From: a virus
Strand: one strand, 5' to 3'
DNA: 20,441 bases
IMG/VR virus record: IMGVR_UViG_3300002100_000002
Location: 1 to 20,441 of that record
Positions 440 through 20,054 of the stretch are shown piece after piece. Both the position numbers and the translations under genes were made by a program. Each line of letters starts with the position of its first letter. Position 1 is the first letter of the stretch. The notes beneath the pieces were generated by a model, which was not told where the DNA came from, ran no database searches, and saw nothing but the letters and a program-made list of their open reading frames with translations.

Positions 440-796
440 ATGATAAAAGCAAATGAATTAAGGATCGGGAATTTAGTAAATACAAAATACGGGATCTTAT
501 CCGTTCATGCCTCAATGTTAGCGGATATTGTGAATAATGGATTTAATGTAAACCCAATCCCTTTAACGCCTGAGATTTTGGAAAGTTGCGGATTTACAAA
601 AGATGAAGAAGAATTGTGCCTACCTGTTGATGATAATTATTCGCTTGTTTGGGATGAGGACGGCGTTTATATTGATTCCTTTGAATCTTTACTTTATGAC
701 AGTAGAATCATTTATCTGCACCAATTACAAAACCTTTATTTCGCTTTAAAGGGCGAAGAATTAGAGGTTAAATTATTGGATCGGGTTTCTCATTAA
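440..796 (+). CDS. Conserved small Bacteroidota phage protein, function unknown
   Basis: A 118-residue protein beginning MIKANELRIGNLVN, with a central PIPLTPEILESCGF stretch and a C-terminal YLHQLQNLYFALKGEEL segment. I recognise this layout (MxANELRIGN..., PLTPE.L...GF, YLHQLQNLYFALTGEEL) from many small proteins in Bacteroidota phages and prophages; no function is known to me. No membrane segment or catalytic motif is visible. It is on the opposite strand from the surrounding late genes, has its own candidate -7 box, and ends 24 bases inside the convergent 59-aa gene. It therefore looks like a separately expressed accessory gene inserted in the tail region. Confidence 0.85.
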   Translation: MIKANELRIGNLVNTKYGILSVHASMLADIVNNGFNVNPIPLTPEILESCGFTKDEEELCLPVDDNYSLVWDEDGVYIDSFESLLYDSRIIYLHQLQNLYFALKGEELEVKLLDRVSH

Positions 797-952
797 CAGC
801 TTTAAGGCTTCCTTAATTTCTTTTTTTTCGGCTTCGGTAAATTTCAAGGGGTTGCCGCGCCCGTTCTTGCCCCGGATCTTGTGCTTATAGCTTTTGATCT
901 GAGGGCAAAATTTAGGGAAAAATTGATCTGCTTTTATATAGTTGAAGATCAT
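773..952 (-). CDS. Small basic protein (59 aa), function unknown
   Basis: ATG 952 to TAA 773-775 encodes 59 residues: MIFNYIKADQFFPKFC at the start, a basic KSYKHKIRGKNGRGNPLKF centre and a charged helical end (TEAEKKEIKEALKLLM). The ATG overlaps the stop of the upstream gene in an ATGA arrangement (952-949), which is strong evidence for translation by coupling. The basic centre would suit nucleic-acid or acidic-protein binding, but that is inference. The 3' end overlaps the convergent plus-strand gene by 24 bases. I do not recognise a named family. Confidence 0.65.
   Translation of the reverse strand: MIFNYIKADQFFPKFCPQIKSYKHKIRGKNGRGNPLKFTEAEKKEIKEALKLLMRNPIQ
802..828 (+). terminator. Possible weak intrinsic terminator for the 440-796 gene
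   Basis: Six bases after the plus-strand stop, TTAAGG-CTT-CCTTAA can form a 6-bp hairpin with a 3-base loop, followed by TTTC and eight T. The stem is short and AT-rich, and the same bases code for a Glu/Lys-rich stretch of the 59-aa gene on the other strand, so the T-run may simply be Lys codons. Confidence 0.35.
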
Positions 953-1153: not shown

Positions 1154-1185
1154 CAAAGATAGTGTAACTTATTGGTTACACCAAA
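1154..1185 (-). promoter_or_regulatory. Bacteroidota promoter with a palindromic operator filling the spacer
   Basis: On the minus strand TTTG (1185-1182) and TATCTTTG (1161-1154) match the -33 (TTTG) and -7 (TAnnTTTG) elements. The 20-base spacer between them (1181-1162) is a perfect inverted repeat, GTGTAAC-N6-GTTACAC. Spacer length is right for this promoter class. A dimeric repressor bound here would cover the space between both promoter elements, so the downstream pair of small genes is probably switched by a phage or host regulator. Confidence 0.7.
1162..1181. repeat. Perfect 7-bp inverted repeat (operator candidate)
   Basis: GTGTAAC, six spacer bases TTATTG, then GTTACAC. The two arms are exact reverse complements. 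The site sits exactly between the two promoter boxes. The size is typical of the DNA site of a dimeric helix-turn-helix repressor; the cognate protein is not in this window. Confidence 0.65.
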
Positions 1186-9061: not shown

Positions 9062-9694
9062 TCATGCAATTAGCTTTAATTGCATCGTTTGCTCTTTAAA
9101 TCTTTTCTCCTGCGCTAGATAATAATCTCTATCCAGTTCAAAGCCGGTGAAATCAAATCCCATATCGTGGGCAGCAATCCGGCTGCTTCCTGATCCTAAA
9201 TGAGTATCTAAAATTTTATCGCCGGGGGTTGCGTAATTGTATAAAAGCCATTTGTATAATGCTATTGGCTTTTCGCAAGGGTGTATCGCCTTTTCTTTCC
9301 GTACCCTTCCTACAATTCCATCGTTAACACCTCCCCACGCATAACGGAAATAAGCTACTCTTTTTAGTCTTGAATAAGAGGCTATTTCGCAAGCTGAAAA
9401 ATTAGGATTTGGGTTTTGTTTATCCCATATAATTGCGCCTCCGTTCCCATTGAAGCAATTATAATAATTTGCACCCCAAATAATTTGCTCTTTTGATACC
9501 CTTTCTAATTCTATAAAATACTCTTTAACGGGCGTGTTATCATTCCAGGTAACCGCCTCACCTCTAATATTCCCGCCCGTTTGTACCCAATTACCAATCC
9601 CGTAAGGCGGATCAACGATAGCGAGTTCAAAATATTTATCCGGGTATCTTTTCATACCCTCCATACAATCAATATTTTCAACTATTGAGTTCAT
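9062..9694 (-). CDS. Beta-class DNA amino-methyltransferase (N6-adenine or N4-cytosine)
   Basis: 210 residues. Motif IV DPPY is at 28-31 in AIVDPPYGIGNW, and the AdoMet-binding motif I comes later, ILDTHLGSGSSRIAA (161-175), so motif order is that of the beta class. Catalysis would add a methyl group from S-adenosylmethionine to an exocyclic amino group. Motif I is DTHLGSGS instead of DPFxGSGT. The region between (about 40-135) is the likely target-recognition part and is short, so specificity is probably a short site. No restriction gene is adjacent. It stands alone inside the head operon, its ATG directly after the portal stop, which suggests protection of phage DNA before packaging. Confidence 0.92.
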   Translation of the reverse strand: MNSIVENIDCMEGMKRYPDKYFELAIVDPPYGIGNWVQTGGNIRGEAVTWNDNTPVKEYFIELERVSKEQIIWGANYYNCFNGNGGAIIWDKQNPNPNFSACEIASYSRLKRVAYFRYAWGGVNDGIVGRVRKEKAIHPCEKPIALYKWLLYNYATPGDKILDTHLGSGSSRIAAHDMGFDFTGFELDRDYYLAQEKRFKEQTMQLKLIA

Positions 9695-13289: not shown

Positions 13290-13310
13290 CTGAGGGGTGT
13301 AAACATTTCA

Positions 13311-13318
13311 CAAAGATA
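13311..13318 (-). promoter_or_regulatory. Promoter -7 box (TATCTTTG) for the packaging/head operon
   Basis: TATCTTTG (minus strand) matches TAnnTTTG exactly and is identical to the box at 1161-1154. It lies in the 67-base gap between the coiled-coil gene's stop (13357) and the 64-aa gene's start (13289), leaving a short leader of roughly 15 bases. The -33 element is weak (a CCTG about 19 bases upstream). Its place marks the border between the DNA-metabolism and the packaging modules. A loose dyad (13297-13311) touches the box. Confidence 0.6.
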
Positions 13319-13703: not shown

Positions 13704-15347
13704 TTAAAAATTTAGTGTTTGCGCTAAATACCTTTCCGGGTTCCATGCTTTTACACGCGCCTCAGATATTTTACAATATTCTTCCGATAGATCAATTCCG
13801 ATAAAGTTTATTAACTCCTGTTTGCAACCAATTAAAGTTGATCCGCTACCGCAAAAAGGATCAAGGCATAAGCCATGTTTAGGGGTAACTAATCTTACCA
13901 GGTATCTCATTAATTCTATTGGCTTAACTGTTGGGTGGTGGTTCTTGGCTTTTGCTTTAATACTTCCAAACTTCCCGCAAACATCATCCGGTGTATTGTT
14001 CATGCCGCCTCCGCCTGTTGTTTGTTTTTCCTCAAATCCTTTTAATCCTTTATTCCTTCCAAAATTGTCGGCTTTAGCACAATAAAAGAAACGGGAAGCG
14101 CCGCCGGTGTCTGTATGTCCGCCCCTATCAATCTGCTTTTTACCCGACCACATACCCGCATCTAAACCGCCTAACCCGCCGGATTTACTAATACTTACCC
14201 CGCTTTGTTTATCCAGTTCAGCCGCCATAAATTCATCTAGTATAAGGTTAGCAGGGAAACGGCCTAATTGCTGTCCGTTTGTCTGGTGCGTTTCCTGCGC
14301 TTCGCTATTACCGTATTTACCTTTACTTATTGCAGATTCACTACCCCTTGAATGATTTGTAATTACTTCACTACCTTCCACCCTGCACCCATCAATATTA
14401 ATTCCTCCTGTTCCATGCTTTAAAACGTTTTCTGCTACTGTATTTTCGCTTAAAGGTTTCCGGACAAGTGTCCAAAATTCTGTTGCGGGTTTTAAGGCTG
14501 TGCCGTAACCTTGCCATTGCTTTGCGGCTTCGGTTGCGGGGGCTGTAATAACTGCTTTGCTTTCATCAAAAGAACAATTAAAAGTCCCCGCTTTTGGTGT
14601 TGCCGGCTGTGCCATTTTACCTATTATTTCCCTTTCTGCTTCTATAAATTTGGTTGGTCTATCTTCAATTAAATTAGCAAACCTGTCATCTATATCTAAA
14701 ATGGTTTTCAACACCTGCCAATCTTCCCATGTTATTAACCTATTAAAAGATTTGTGTAAACTTTCCCAATGATTGCAAACGGTAGCGGCATTAAATATTT
14801 TATTTATTTCATCTGCTGTTAGTCCTTTAGCTTCCCTGCATACCTTTATATATTTGGCAAATTCAAAACGCTTTTGCATTAGTTCAATATCTTCTTTAGC
14901 CTTTTTGTCAATCGCTTTTCCTATATCTAAACTTTTTGGAAATCCCGATCCGTAAACCCACGGTATAATTGCCGGGTTTAATTCATTTACCAATTTTGAT
15001 AATGCGCGCTGCTGTTCCTCATCAAGTGAGTTAATAAAGTTTTCTACTTCTGTATTGCCTTCAAATAAATAAGTTATGTTATCCCTTATTTCAAAGCCCG
15101 CGTCCTCAATATTTACTACCATTCTATGTTGTGTCCTGGTTCCACAAGCTGAGAGTAAATGACCGCCCGGTTTTAATACTCTTATTGCCTGCTGCCATTG
15201 GTAAACTGTTGGAACTTCATAATCCCATTTCTTACCCATAAAATTTAATCCATAAGGCGGATCGGTAACTATTGAATCAAAATAGTTATCCGGGAAATCT
15301 TTTAAAACTTCCTCCATTTTACCGCATATGATTTTATTTTTATCCAT
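13704..15347 (-). CDS. Beta-class DNA amino-methyltransferase with HTH-like insert
   Basis: 547 residues. Motif IV DPPY at 29-32 (SIVTDPPYGLNFMGKKWDYE), then VLKPGGHLLSACGTRTQHRM, WVYGSGFPKSLDIGKAID, GRFPANLILDE (362-372), HHPTVKPIELMRYL and motif I LDPFCGSGSTLIG (495-507). All are typical of large phage N4/N6 methyltransferases (N6_N4_Mtase family). Two inserts break the usual order. One is at about 95-126, an acidic helical piece before AIIPWVYGSG. The other is at about 145-238, where YIKVCREAKGLTADEINKIFNA...HWES...WEDWQVLKTIL looks like an XRE-like helix-turn-helix between KAIDK and EREIIG. The insert may add DNA binding. No restriction partner is adjacent. Confidence 0.93.
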   Translation of the reverse strand: MDKNKIICGKMEEVLKDFPDNYFDSIVTDPPYGLNFMGKKWDYEVPTVYQWQQAIRVLKPGGHLLSACGTRTQHRMVVNIEDAGFEIRDNITYLFEGNTEVENFINSLDEEQQRALSKLVNELNPAIIPWVYGSGFPKSLDIGKAIDKKAKEDIELMQKRFEFAKYIKVCREAKGLTADEINKIFNAATVCNHWESLHKSFNRLITWEDWQVLKTILDIDDRFANLIEDRPTKFIEAEREIIGKMAQPATPKAGTFNCSFDESKAVITAPATEAAKQWQGYGTALKPATEFWTLVRKPLSENTVAENVLKHGTGGINIDGCRVEGSEVITNHSRGSESAISKGKYGNSEAQETHQTNGQQLGRFPANLILDEFMAAELDKQSGVSISKSGGLGGLDAGMWSGKKQIDRGGHTDTGGASRFFYCAKADNFGRNKGLKGFEEKQTTGGGGMNNTPDDVCGKFGSIKAKAKNHHPTVKPIELMRYLVRLVTPKHGLCLDPFCGSGSTLIGCKQELINFIGIDLSEEYCKISEARVKAWNPERYLAQTLNF

Positions 15348-17887: not shown

Positions 17888-18523
17888 TCAACTAAATAAA
17901 CTTTGTTGTTTGTTACTCTGTTCCCGGATAACTCCCCGGGCCTGTTCTAAAATATATAAACCTAAATCCGGGTTAACCATGTTGCGTAATATCTGATCCT
18001 TTCTATGTTCTAATTTTCTGCCTTTTAAGGAAATACCGTAAACCGTATCATTTGCGGAAACTTTCAATAAATTAAATTCAGGCTCTTTTAATATTGCGCC
18101 CTGGATATTAAAGTTTGTCCAAAACAAATGCCTTTGAATTTCGCAAGTCGGCTTAACAAATGGCTCATAATATGGTATTACGTTTTCAATCACATATTTA
18201 CAGGTGCTGAAATTGCCTAAAAAAGTTATTTCCTCCCATAGCTTATGATCTATATATTTAGGGTACCTGTTAATGCCCCGGCTCCCTCCCCAAAAAGTTG
18301 CGCGGCTATGACTTTGGCAAGGCGGCGAACTCCATATAAAATCAAATTCTTTATAGTGCTGTAACAAATATTCGTGAGCGTCGCCTATAATCATTTTATC
18401 ATCCGGGAAATATTCGGAATAGATCCCGGCAATTTCTTCATTCAATTCTACTGCCGTAACTTCTACGTCCTGCCAAAGTTTGCGGTTTCCCCCTATCCCT
18501 GCATATAGATTTAATACTTTCAT
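17888..18523 (-). CDS. C5-cytosine DNA methyltransferase, short phage type
   Basis: I take ATG 18523 (MKVLNLYAGIGGNRKLW), two bases after the upstream stop, giving 211 residues. Motif I is LYAGIGG (6-12); the acid after strand 2 is AVELNEE; motif IV is SSPPCQSHS with the catalytic cysteine C69; motif VI is YVIENVIPYYEP (Glu114). Near the end RNMVNPDLGLYIL resembles the last conserved motif. The usual large target-recognition domain of Dcm-type enzymes is missing (typical length 300 or more), so specificity comes from a minimal region (about 120-165). I know this compact form from many Bacteroidota phages. Catalysis: methyl transfer to C5 of cytosine. Role: likely anti-restriction. Confidence 0.9.
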   Translation of the reverse strand: MKVLNLYAGIGGNRKLWQDVEVTAVELNEEIAGIYSEYFPDDKMIIGDAHEYLLQHYKEFDFIWSSPPCQSHSRATFWGGSRGINRYPKYIDHKLWEEITFLGNFSTCKYVIENVIPYYEPFVKPTCEIQRHLFWTNFNIQGAILKEPEFNLLKVSANDTVYGISLKGRKLEHRKDQILRNMVNPDLGLYILEQARGVIREQSNKQQSLFS

Positions 18524-18525
18524 TT

Positions 18526-19116
18526 TTAATTCCTTAATTCCGGCGGTACATAAGGAAGCCTTAACCACGCGAAAAAACCGGCTTCATTTTGCCATACGGG
18601 CGGCGTTTCTGCTTCCGGGTTCACGCATTTCCATTTTCTTTTGCCGTCGGGCTGTAGGATCCCCTGGCAATCTTCAATCCTTCTTAGTCCTTTATCTGAT
18701 CCCACCCATCCCCGCGATACCCATGCACTAGCTAGCGCATAATGAGAATAATTTGCCGATCCTGTTCTTATAGCGTACTGCCGAAAATAATCCGCCTCAT
18801 CCGGCATAAATAAATCTAACATGATGTTTTCTTTTAATTCTATCTGCATCATTTTACCGTCGGCGGCTGATCCCTTTACTACCTTACCTAATTTATTTAC
18901 CAGGCCGATAAATTGCGGTAATCTTTGTCTCCCGGTTATGTTTCCAAATAAATCCGTTTCCTCTTTAACTAACGGTAAACACAAAATCTCTATATCGTTT
19001 GGATCCGGTTTCTTTCTTCTTATTGATCCCGCTATATTTATGCGGTTCTCCTGGCAATAAGGCTGTAACTTCCTGCAGATATTAACGGCAATATTTTTAG
19101 CGTCTTTTAAGAACAT
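18526..19116 (-). CDS. Family X DNA polymerase-like nucleotidyltransferase
   Basis: 196 residues. The palm signature is GSIRRKKPDPNDIEILCLP: Gly30-Ser31 then Asp41 and Glu43 as the first two metal ligands, with Asp101 in IMLDLFMP as the third. Downstream, FRQYAIRTGSANYSHYALASAWVSRGW and DKGLRRIED are the usual thumb-like motifs of Pol beta-type enzymes. The N-terminal helix-hairpin and 8-kDa domains of cellular enzymes are absent, so this is a minimal phage form. It could fill gaps or add nucleotides during repair or recombination. Replacement of the second Asp by Glu in DxD is unusual for Pol X, but occurs in this phage subgroup as I recall. One-base overlaps join it to both neighbours in the operon. 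Confidence 0.85.
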   Translation of the reverse strand: MFLKDAKNIAVNICRKLQPYCQENRINIAGSIRRKKPDPNDIEILCLPLVKEETDLFGNITGRQRLPQFIGLVNKLGKVVKGSAADGKMMQIELKENIMLDLFMPDEADYFRQYAIRTGSANYSHYALASAWVSRGWVGSDKGLRRIEDCQGILQPDGKRKWKCVNPEAETPPVWQNEAGFFAWLRLPYVPPELRN

Positions 19117-20054
19117 TAGATAAACATTCCTAACTCCTTATTTAGTCTTTTATTTGCGATCTTTATATAAGCCGGATTTAATTCGATCCCGATAAAATTC
19201 CGGTGTAATTTTCTTGCCACTAGTCCGGTCGTTCCCGCTCCCATAAATGGATCTAAAATAATTCCGCTCTCCGGGCATCCGGCTTTTATCATATCTGTTA
19301 TTAATCTTTCGGGAAACGTGGCGAAATGTGCATCACTATACGGGCGGGTTGTTACGGTCCAAACGCTGCGTTTGTTGGCGTTATCATTTGAATCTAACGT
19401 AACGCCGGATCTGATACCGTTTTTAAGCTGATCCGGGAAAGATTTTTTACTCTCCCTTTCCAATCTGCTCCCCCATTCCTCAATAGCTTTTGATTTTATA
19501 CTTTCCGCATCATAATAATATTTCCCTGATTTACTGAGCAGGAATATATATTCATGTGATTTAGTGCATCTATCCGTTACGCTCTCCGGCATTGGGTTTG
19601 GCTTACTCCAAATTATATCTTGCCTCAGATAGTACCCGATTGAGCGCAAAGCAAAAGCTATCATCCAGGGTATGCCGATTAAGTCTTTTGGTTTGATAGT
19701 ATCGTGTTTCCATTTTTTTGCCACGTCAATTTGAGTTAAACTACCTTGATTAGCTGCCTGAAAGCCTGTTAGGTTGTCTTTTCCGCCCCATCTGCCGGCT
19801 CCCCCTGCGTAACTATCTCCCAAATTAATCCAAAGTGTACCTTCTTTCTTTAGTACGCGTTTAACCTCAGTAAATACCTCAACCATTTTTAATACGTATA
19901 ACTCCGGGGTTTCTTCTAAACCGATTTGCGCGCCCATTTGATAATCACGAAGGCCAAAATAAGGCGGCGAAGTAATGCAGCAATCAAAACAGTTATCCGG
20001 GAATGTTTTTAATACTTCCAGGCAATCACCCTCATATATTTTATTGATCTCCAT
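19116..20054 (-). CDS. Beta-class DNA amino-methyltransferase (SPPY type)
   Basis: 312 residues. Motif IV is SPPYFGLRDYQ (29-39), motif I is ILDPFMGAGTTGLVA (266-280), so the order is beta class. SPPY is often found in N4-cytosine enzymes, but N6-adenine activity cannot be excluded. Other conserved parts: VLKKEGTLWINLGDSYAGG, PKDLIGIPWMIAFALRSIGYYLRQDIIWSKPNPMPESVTDRCTKSHEYIFLLSKS, and SVWTVTTRPYSDAHFATFPERLI. These match typical stand-alone phage enzymes. It opens the visible metabolism operon after the HNH-like gene, sharing one base with its stop (TAATG). No cognate endonuclease is visible. Confidence 0.94.
   Translation of the reverse strand: MEINKIYEGDCLEVLKTFPDNCFDCCITSPPYFGLRDYQMGAQIGLEETPELYVLKMVEVFTEVKRVLKKEGTLWINLGDSYAGGAGRWGGKDNLTGFQAANQGSLTQIDVAKKWKHDTIKPKDLIGIPWMIAFALRSIGYYLRQDIIWSKPNPMPESVTDRCTKSHEYIFLLSKSGKYYYDAESIKSKAIEEWGSRLERESKKSFPDQLKNGIRSGVTLDSNDNANKRSVWTVTTRPYSDAHFATFPERLITDMIKAGCPESGIILDPFMGAGTTGLVARKLHRNFIGIELNPAYIKIANKRLNKELGMFI

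Follow-up and report, generated by a model that had tools for sequence, protein, structure and literature searches.

Between the two boxes of a minus-strand promoter, a 20.4-kb virus record carries an inverted repeat that is followed by two very small genes. This record, with tail and head-completion genes on its minus strand, was analysed over its whole length of 20,441 nucleotides and is called the window below. The locus raises the question of what the palindrome does and which protein reads it.

Promoter, palindrome and operon of the window

The sequence-only reading had proposed that the palindrome exactly fills the promoter spacer. Indeed, the spacer was exactly 20 bases long, all of it the inverted repeat GTGTAAC-N6-GTTACAC. 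On the minus strand, TTTG, the palindrome and TATCTTTG abutted each other and were followed by CTAC and then by the ATG of ORF A (1149-1147); the distance of 4 nt between the -7 box and this ATG had likewise been read correctly. The features are as follows, where members are the 14 distinct loci encoding ORF B, the window included.

1185-1154, minus strand: promoter-operator block
1182-1185, minus strand: -33 box TTTG, from reading the sequence; TTTG at the same place in 11 of the 14 members
1162-1181, minus strand: operator GTGTAAC-CAATAA-GTTACAC, filling the spacer (GTGTAAC 1181-1175, CAATAA 1174-1169, GTTACAC 1168-1162); kept in other phages and covarying with ORF B residues 20-33
1154-1161, minus strand: -7 box TATCTTTG, from reading the sequence; consensus TAnnTTTG as given in PMC6847099
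949-1149, minus strand: ORF A, 66 aa, first gene, an orphan, possibly leaderless, at the variable position of the cassette
773-952, minus strand: ORF B, 59 aa, second gene, proposed helix-turn-helix autoregulator and remote DUF5053 relative; ATGA overlap with ORF A

Neither the palindrome nor the box pair was rare alone. TTTG-N18..22-TAnnTTTG was found once in the window against 0.90 expected, GTGTAAC-N6-GTTACAC with up to three mismatches matched once against 0.43 expected, and three perfect 7-6-7 palindromes were present, where 200 first-order Markov sequences averaged 2.3. The palindrome and the two promoter boxes together were unique within the window; what goes beyond chance is this coincidence and, above all, its conservation. 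A proposed link of the half-site to a dyad at 13297-13311 (GTGTAAACATTTCAC, minus strand) had to be abandoned: this dyad is not a second operator, because it is 15 bases long and is located after a TATCTTTG rather than between boxes.

The ORF A transcript had also been suggested to be leaderless. This is possible because 4 or 5 nt lie between many -7 elements and the start site in F. johnsoniae, as reported in PMC6847099. The short distance was, however, confined to the window and L035; in the other 12 members, 10-63 nt separated the -7 box from the first ATG-started ORF of at least 40 aa. In some members, a GTGTAAC half-site also starts at or just past the -7 box (L005:4527-4533, L007:2676-2682; TTTGTGTAACAAAA), which could be a second binding site or merely a common start-region sequence.

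The tail operon upstream closes with a gene that ends at 1224, and a convergent plus-strand gene (440-796) overlaps the end of ORF B, so that the window operon stops there. Of the moron-like, separately repressed gene pair proposed at the outset, a small and apparently separately controlled accessory operon beside the tail genes was supported, and its repression is proposed below. ORF A matched no Pfam family at E≤1 and only two PHROGs, at 0.053 and 0.14. For ORF A and the neighbouring tail gene, no IMG/VR relatives were found in searches reaching close relatives only, and the phage collection shared with the cassette DNA just four pieces, 30-35 bases long and at chance level. Elsewhere in the window, four ORFs (9062-9694, 13704-15347, 17888-18568 and 19116-20054) resemble DNA methyltransferases by motifs recognized by eye.

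Conservation of the operator and ORF B across phages

Conservation of the palindrome upstream of homologous genes had been set beforehand as the point on which the proposal could fall, and IMG/VR searches with the operator and with ORF B came out in its favour. A DNA search that fixed 24 bases of the boxes and half-sites retrieved six IMG/VR stretches, and the ORF B search retrieved nine loci. Four of the six stretches were on the same contigs as ORF B loci, and the remaining two (L012, L013) encode ORF B too. When the three inner half-site bases were left free (TTTGGTGnnnC-N6-GnnnCACTAnnTTTG), eight stretches were obtained from all of IMG/VR. ORF B lay downstream on the same strand, at 0.3-0.8 kb, in all eight; the motif was derived from the family, and tblastn confirmed the same eight contigs. 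L012 and L013 carry one cassette, and the eight stretches represent seven distinct cassettes, in which the genes preceding ORF B vary.

In GTDB genome contigs, a slightly loosened pattern gave one stretch, from Niabella aurantiaca, also with ORF B. The operator and ORF B of this element were the same as in the L004 record, and it is presumably the L004 prophage. The 5.9-Mb Niabella assembly contained the exact operator once and showed no enrichment of sites with two or fewer mismatches (six, versus nine for a control pattern). Genomes with ORF B relatives were scarce in wider sampling: two of 294 at the family level, three of 396 at the order level and two of 395 at the phylum level, with the Niabella assembly in all three samples and the weak matches being L042-L044. 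No tblastn match to ORF B was found in the phage collection, nor was any match to the L018 homologue found in plasmids.

In a scan starting from the protein, sites upstream of the 14 members were scored by their boxes and symmetry. A candidate site was present in every member and scored 14-17 in 12 of them; only four of 282,020 background positions scored 14, and none reached 15. The other two scores, 12 in L009 (site 2.2 kb upstream) and 13 in L035, were at background level. The -33 box was imperfect in L009, L035 and L039, and the -7 box was poor in L020 and L035. Sequences flanking the promoter block were largely dissimilar between members, although some upstream sequence was common to L020, L035 and L040. 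The later homologues (L018, L020, L035, L039 and L040) kept the architecture and not the half-site.

The operator with up to two mismatches occurred once each in records G000-G005 and G008-G011, six times in G006 and five times in G007; the control pattern occurred once each in G006, G007, G009, G010 and G011 and was absent from the remaining records. The G009 site was not upstream of the truncated ORF B there. G006, the 60.5-kb record of L007, contained eight plus-strand sites of the L007-type pattern, versus none for the control. Seven of the eight lie directly upstream of a -7-like box, and two of these boxes are one mismatch from TAnnTTTG; the sites without such a box are 42696 (plus) and an extra one at 53450 (minus). 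The promoter-like places, on contig G006:C1, are 11751, 12200, 43762, 44370, 48354, 49498 and 50214. One operator type thus stands at several promoters of the L007 phage, and therefore the protein is not always solely an autoregulator; these sites may form a regulon of small genes. An ORF near ORF B in the same locus (L007:3678-4466, 262 aa) resembles, by eye, a PAPS-reductase-type enzyme.

One or two genes lie between the operator and ORF B in 12 of the 14 members, and more in L007 and L009. ORF B overlaps the preceding gene by ATGA (4 nt) in nine members and by 11 nt in L006, L009 and L012, and is separated from it by a gap in L003 and in L039. Within 25 nt of the end of ORF B, another same-strand ORF of at least 40 aa begins in L003, L006, L007 and L009; in the other ten it begins after 35-505 nt. 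The cassettes were found among tail completion genes (window), behind the major capsid gene (L018), behind a muramidase (L004), near an integrase (L002, L012) and near DnaB genes (L035, L039, L040). A family scan covering 11 cassette proteins, one from the window and ten others, left out those of L007, L009, L018 and L039 and some second genes. It returned no informative family among the 11; weak matches among the ten others were to a Mu-like protease (one protein, L035, E 0.0045) and to PHROGs of unknown function (four).

Operator variants and the recognition segment of ORF B

The half-site differed by phage and was GTGTAAC, GTGTAAT, GTGTAAG, GTGGTWC or GTGAAAC. The ORF B segment SYKHKIRGKNGRG was replaced by DYKRKISGRNGRG in L018 (operator GTGGTAC..GAACCAC), by SYNHKMRGFNGRG in L039 (GTGTAAG..CTTACAC), by SYNHKMRGKNGRG in L007 (GTGTAAT..WTTACAC), and by [YH]K[YF]KIR..NSR in L020, L035 and L040 (GTGAAAC..GTTTCCG).

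Among the 14 members, operator distance correlated with the distance in residues 20-33 at r=0.85 and with that in the rest of the protein at 0.22 (partial correlation 0.85; p=5e-5, 20,000 permutations). Residues 20-33 had been picked after the alignments were inspected; a sliding window of 12 residues, which is independent of that choice, peaked at 0.88 at residues 20-31 and 21-32. The p-value was 1.5e-4 with the two weak sites out (n=12), 5e-5 with two paralogues in (n=16), 1e-4 in a thinned set (n=9) and 0.011 with one member per class (n=6), and all of these values overstate independence, because the members are related and L020, L035 and L040 share upstream DNA. The highest single columns were 24, 27, 29 and 31, with column 27 resting on one member (p 0.07); columns 2, 4 and 13, outside the segment, also gave p<0.03, uncorrected for the number of columns. 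When each operator was predicted from the nearest neighbour, residues 20-33 gave 1.11 mismatches of 14 for all members, the rest of the protein 2.45 and a random pair 2.88; with the weak sites out, the gain was modest (1.56, 1.97 and 2.73, respectively).

Dropped before this comparison were L008 (the L007 cassette), L010 (ORF B truncated where the contig stops), L013 (identical to L012), L017 and L019 (the L004 element) and refetched loci on the same contigs. The paralogues L005:3208-3423 and L007:8273-8602, used in the n=16 variant only, are second, diverged copies of ORF B with weak or degenerate upstream operators. The L005 paralogue has a KYK/NARNN segment and a GTGAAAC half-site upstream, as the covariation predicts.

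The AF2 model of ORF B (pLDDT 85.5) placed a helix at 8-15, a turn, a helix at 22-27, a loop and a long helix at 40-55, a layout that would be as expected of a helix-turn-helix with a variable second helix. The half-sites follow residues 20-33, which include the second helix of this predicted motif, and the operator is therefore very probably bound by ORF B as its cognate protein. Fold comparison did not confirm the helix-turn-helix: Foldseek against the PDB found nothing at E≤0.001, and a PDB sequence search found nothing relevant. The best aligned chain was 6vli_B, a transcriptional regulator of phage 186 (Z 3.9, rmsd 3.4, 49 residues), in a range that the tool rates as common. The Foldseek rows from the PDB and VIA, mostly HIV reverse transcriptase and other unrelated proteins, were discarded as noise.

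By profile, the window ORF B matched PF16476 (DUF5053) with E 3.1e-5 and 24.0 bits, the curated cut-off being 26.6. All 14 members matched PF16476 at E≤0.1 (best 1.2e-6), and none matched NCBIfam. The sole strong match in the viral library was an uncharacterised phage homologue (E 5.9e-5, 45% identity). Furthermore, hhalign aligned the ORF B profile with the DUF5053 protein of L022 over 48 columns (E 1.1e-5, probability 82). PF16476 itself was present in three of 395 genomes, in two of them above the cut-off. At the DUF5053 loci L022, L023 and L025 (two genomes), no comparable site scored at least 14, which argues against a simple extension to all DUF5053 proteins. No paper naming DUF5053 was found in the literature search, and the portions of the literature searched yielded no published function or name for an ORF B-type regulator or such a system.

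Two Porphyromonas gingivalis prophages, L048:2238-2257 (BK068106.1) and L049:2206-2225 (BK068113.1), carry TAGTACG-AAAATT-CGTACTA upstream of two small genes, the second of which encodes an 82-aa DUF5053 protein. By hand count, 20 bases lie between CTTG and TATATTTG. The site is only suggestive, because spurious positions among the positive controls attained the same score of 14. The stretch as a whole matched in 13 related records.

Proposed mechanism and comparison with known systems

We consider it quite likely that the palindrome serves as the operator of a self-regulating, moron-type accessory operon of phages, in which a dimer of ORF B binds the spacer and excludes the polymerase. The analysis showed the architecture, its conservation, a link between operator and ORF B whichever of them was used as the query, and the covariation of the operator with the predicted recognition segment. 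Judged from sequence, ORF B is most likely an autorepressor occluding the -33/-7 promoter; autorepression is proposed because a consensus promoter, an operator in its spacer and a reader encoded in the same operon make up the acr-aca layout. The primary sigma factor of Bacteroidota would direct RNA polymerase to TTTG/TATCTTTG, a consensus promoter, and the transcript would cover both overlapping genes. The 59-residue ORF B protein, with its predicted helix-turn-helix, would settle as a dimer on the two spacer half-sites. Its second helix and the loop behind it (about residues 20-33) would read the varying bases, and the bound protein would shut out the polymerase, thus repressing and not activating. 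The expected output would be a burst of ORF A on entry of the phage DNA, then shut-off, with a low level in the lysogen.

Binding by ORF B could instead activate through distortion of the spacer. MerR-type activators use a position between promoter boxes, and the operator lies exactly there. However, with the -7 G at -5 in the numbering of PMC6847099, a spacer of 20 bases places TTTG at roughly -36 to -33, so its length is not excessive. Most members have consensus boxes that need no activator, and MerR family matches in Pfam and NCBIfam were absent from the 14 members; hence we regard activation as unlikely. Another host or phage repressor might read the palindrome with ORF B as a passenger, and host regulators such as LexA do use palindromes in this phylum (PMC8565304). 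This is very unlikely: the Bacteroidetes SOS motifs reported there (CTAA-N5-TTAG, GGA-N5-TCC) are unlike the operator, the Niabella genome has the exact site only once, and the operator tracks ORF B residues 20-33 and barely the rest of the protein, so that no outside repressor is needed.

The palindrome also forms a 9-pair hairpin that was flagged by a terminator scan and folded as RNA at -9.9 kcal/mol. That it is the intrinsic terminator of the upstream tail operon is nevertheless highly improbable, given that three of the nine pairs are G-C, no T run follows (tail TCTTTGCTAC), the fold z-score was -1.25 with 17 of 200 shuffles folding equally well, and two terminator-like sites were found against 3.0 in shuffles; moreover, both boxes are equally spaced in other phages with different neighbours. 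A chance palindrome in an AT-rich promoter is the last alternative: about 2.3 palindromes of the 7-6-7 type are expected per window, but conservation in phages with different first genes contradicts this explanation and makes it hardly credible.

Some Bacteroidota viruses carry small interchangeable cassettes with a tiny protein that very probably binds the palindrome in its own promoter and silences it. More tentatively, and with rather less than even confidence, DUF5053-type proteins may be a new Aca-like autorepressor family of Bacteroidota phages with an evolving, readable recognition code, the variable first genes early-expressed anti-defence genes, and the L007-type sites a regulon. AcaFinder lists three predicted Aca families of Bacteroidota origin (PMC9765179). 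The proposal offers a testable function for a domain of unknown function, DUF5053, and naturally occurring pairs of regulator and operator that could reveal a recognition code. The operator or ORF B may also be used as bait for small phage genes that may counter Bacteroidota defences; the site could be bait for anti-defence genes because other phages control theirs this way.

By analogy, the cassette is of acr-aca anatomy, here in Bacteroidota and with a type of regulator for which no published function was found, while the Aca families known so far are mostly from Proteobacteria and Firmicutes (PMC9765179). For the Aca families examined in PMC9410906, the core promoter contains an inverted repeat and is repressed by the Aca protein, and Aca10, a dimer, binds a minimal 19-bp palindrome overlapping the promoter (PMC9410881). 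The present cassettes resemble these by arrangement: a short operon with variable first gene or genes and a small regulator gene behind (in all eight operator-first stretches), and a strong core promoter inside which the inverted repeat for the regulator sits (PMC9410906, PMC9410881). They differ in that the promoter is of the Bacteroidota -33/-7 type with the operator exactly filling its spacer, the regulator is of the DUF5053 type, the half-site varies among members, no first gene is known as an anti-CRISPR, and some members have more same-strand ORFs closely behind ORF B.

DUF5053 (PF16476) proteins, encountered here in two Bacteroidota genomes and in Porphyromonas phages, share their profile with all members. 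However, at about 60 aa ORF B is shorter than these DUF5053 proteins, which range from 82 aa up to open frames of some 146 codons, and the window ORF B falls below the curated cut-off. Phage morons are separately transcribed inserts among phage genes. The cassettes are like them in having their own promoter, a small orphan gene and varied insertion places, and unlike them in carrying their own regulator.
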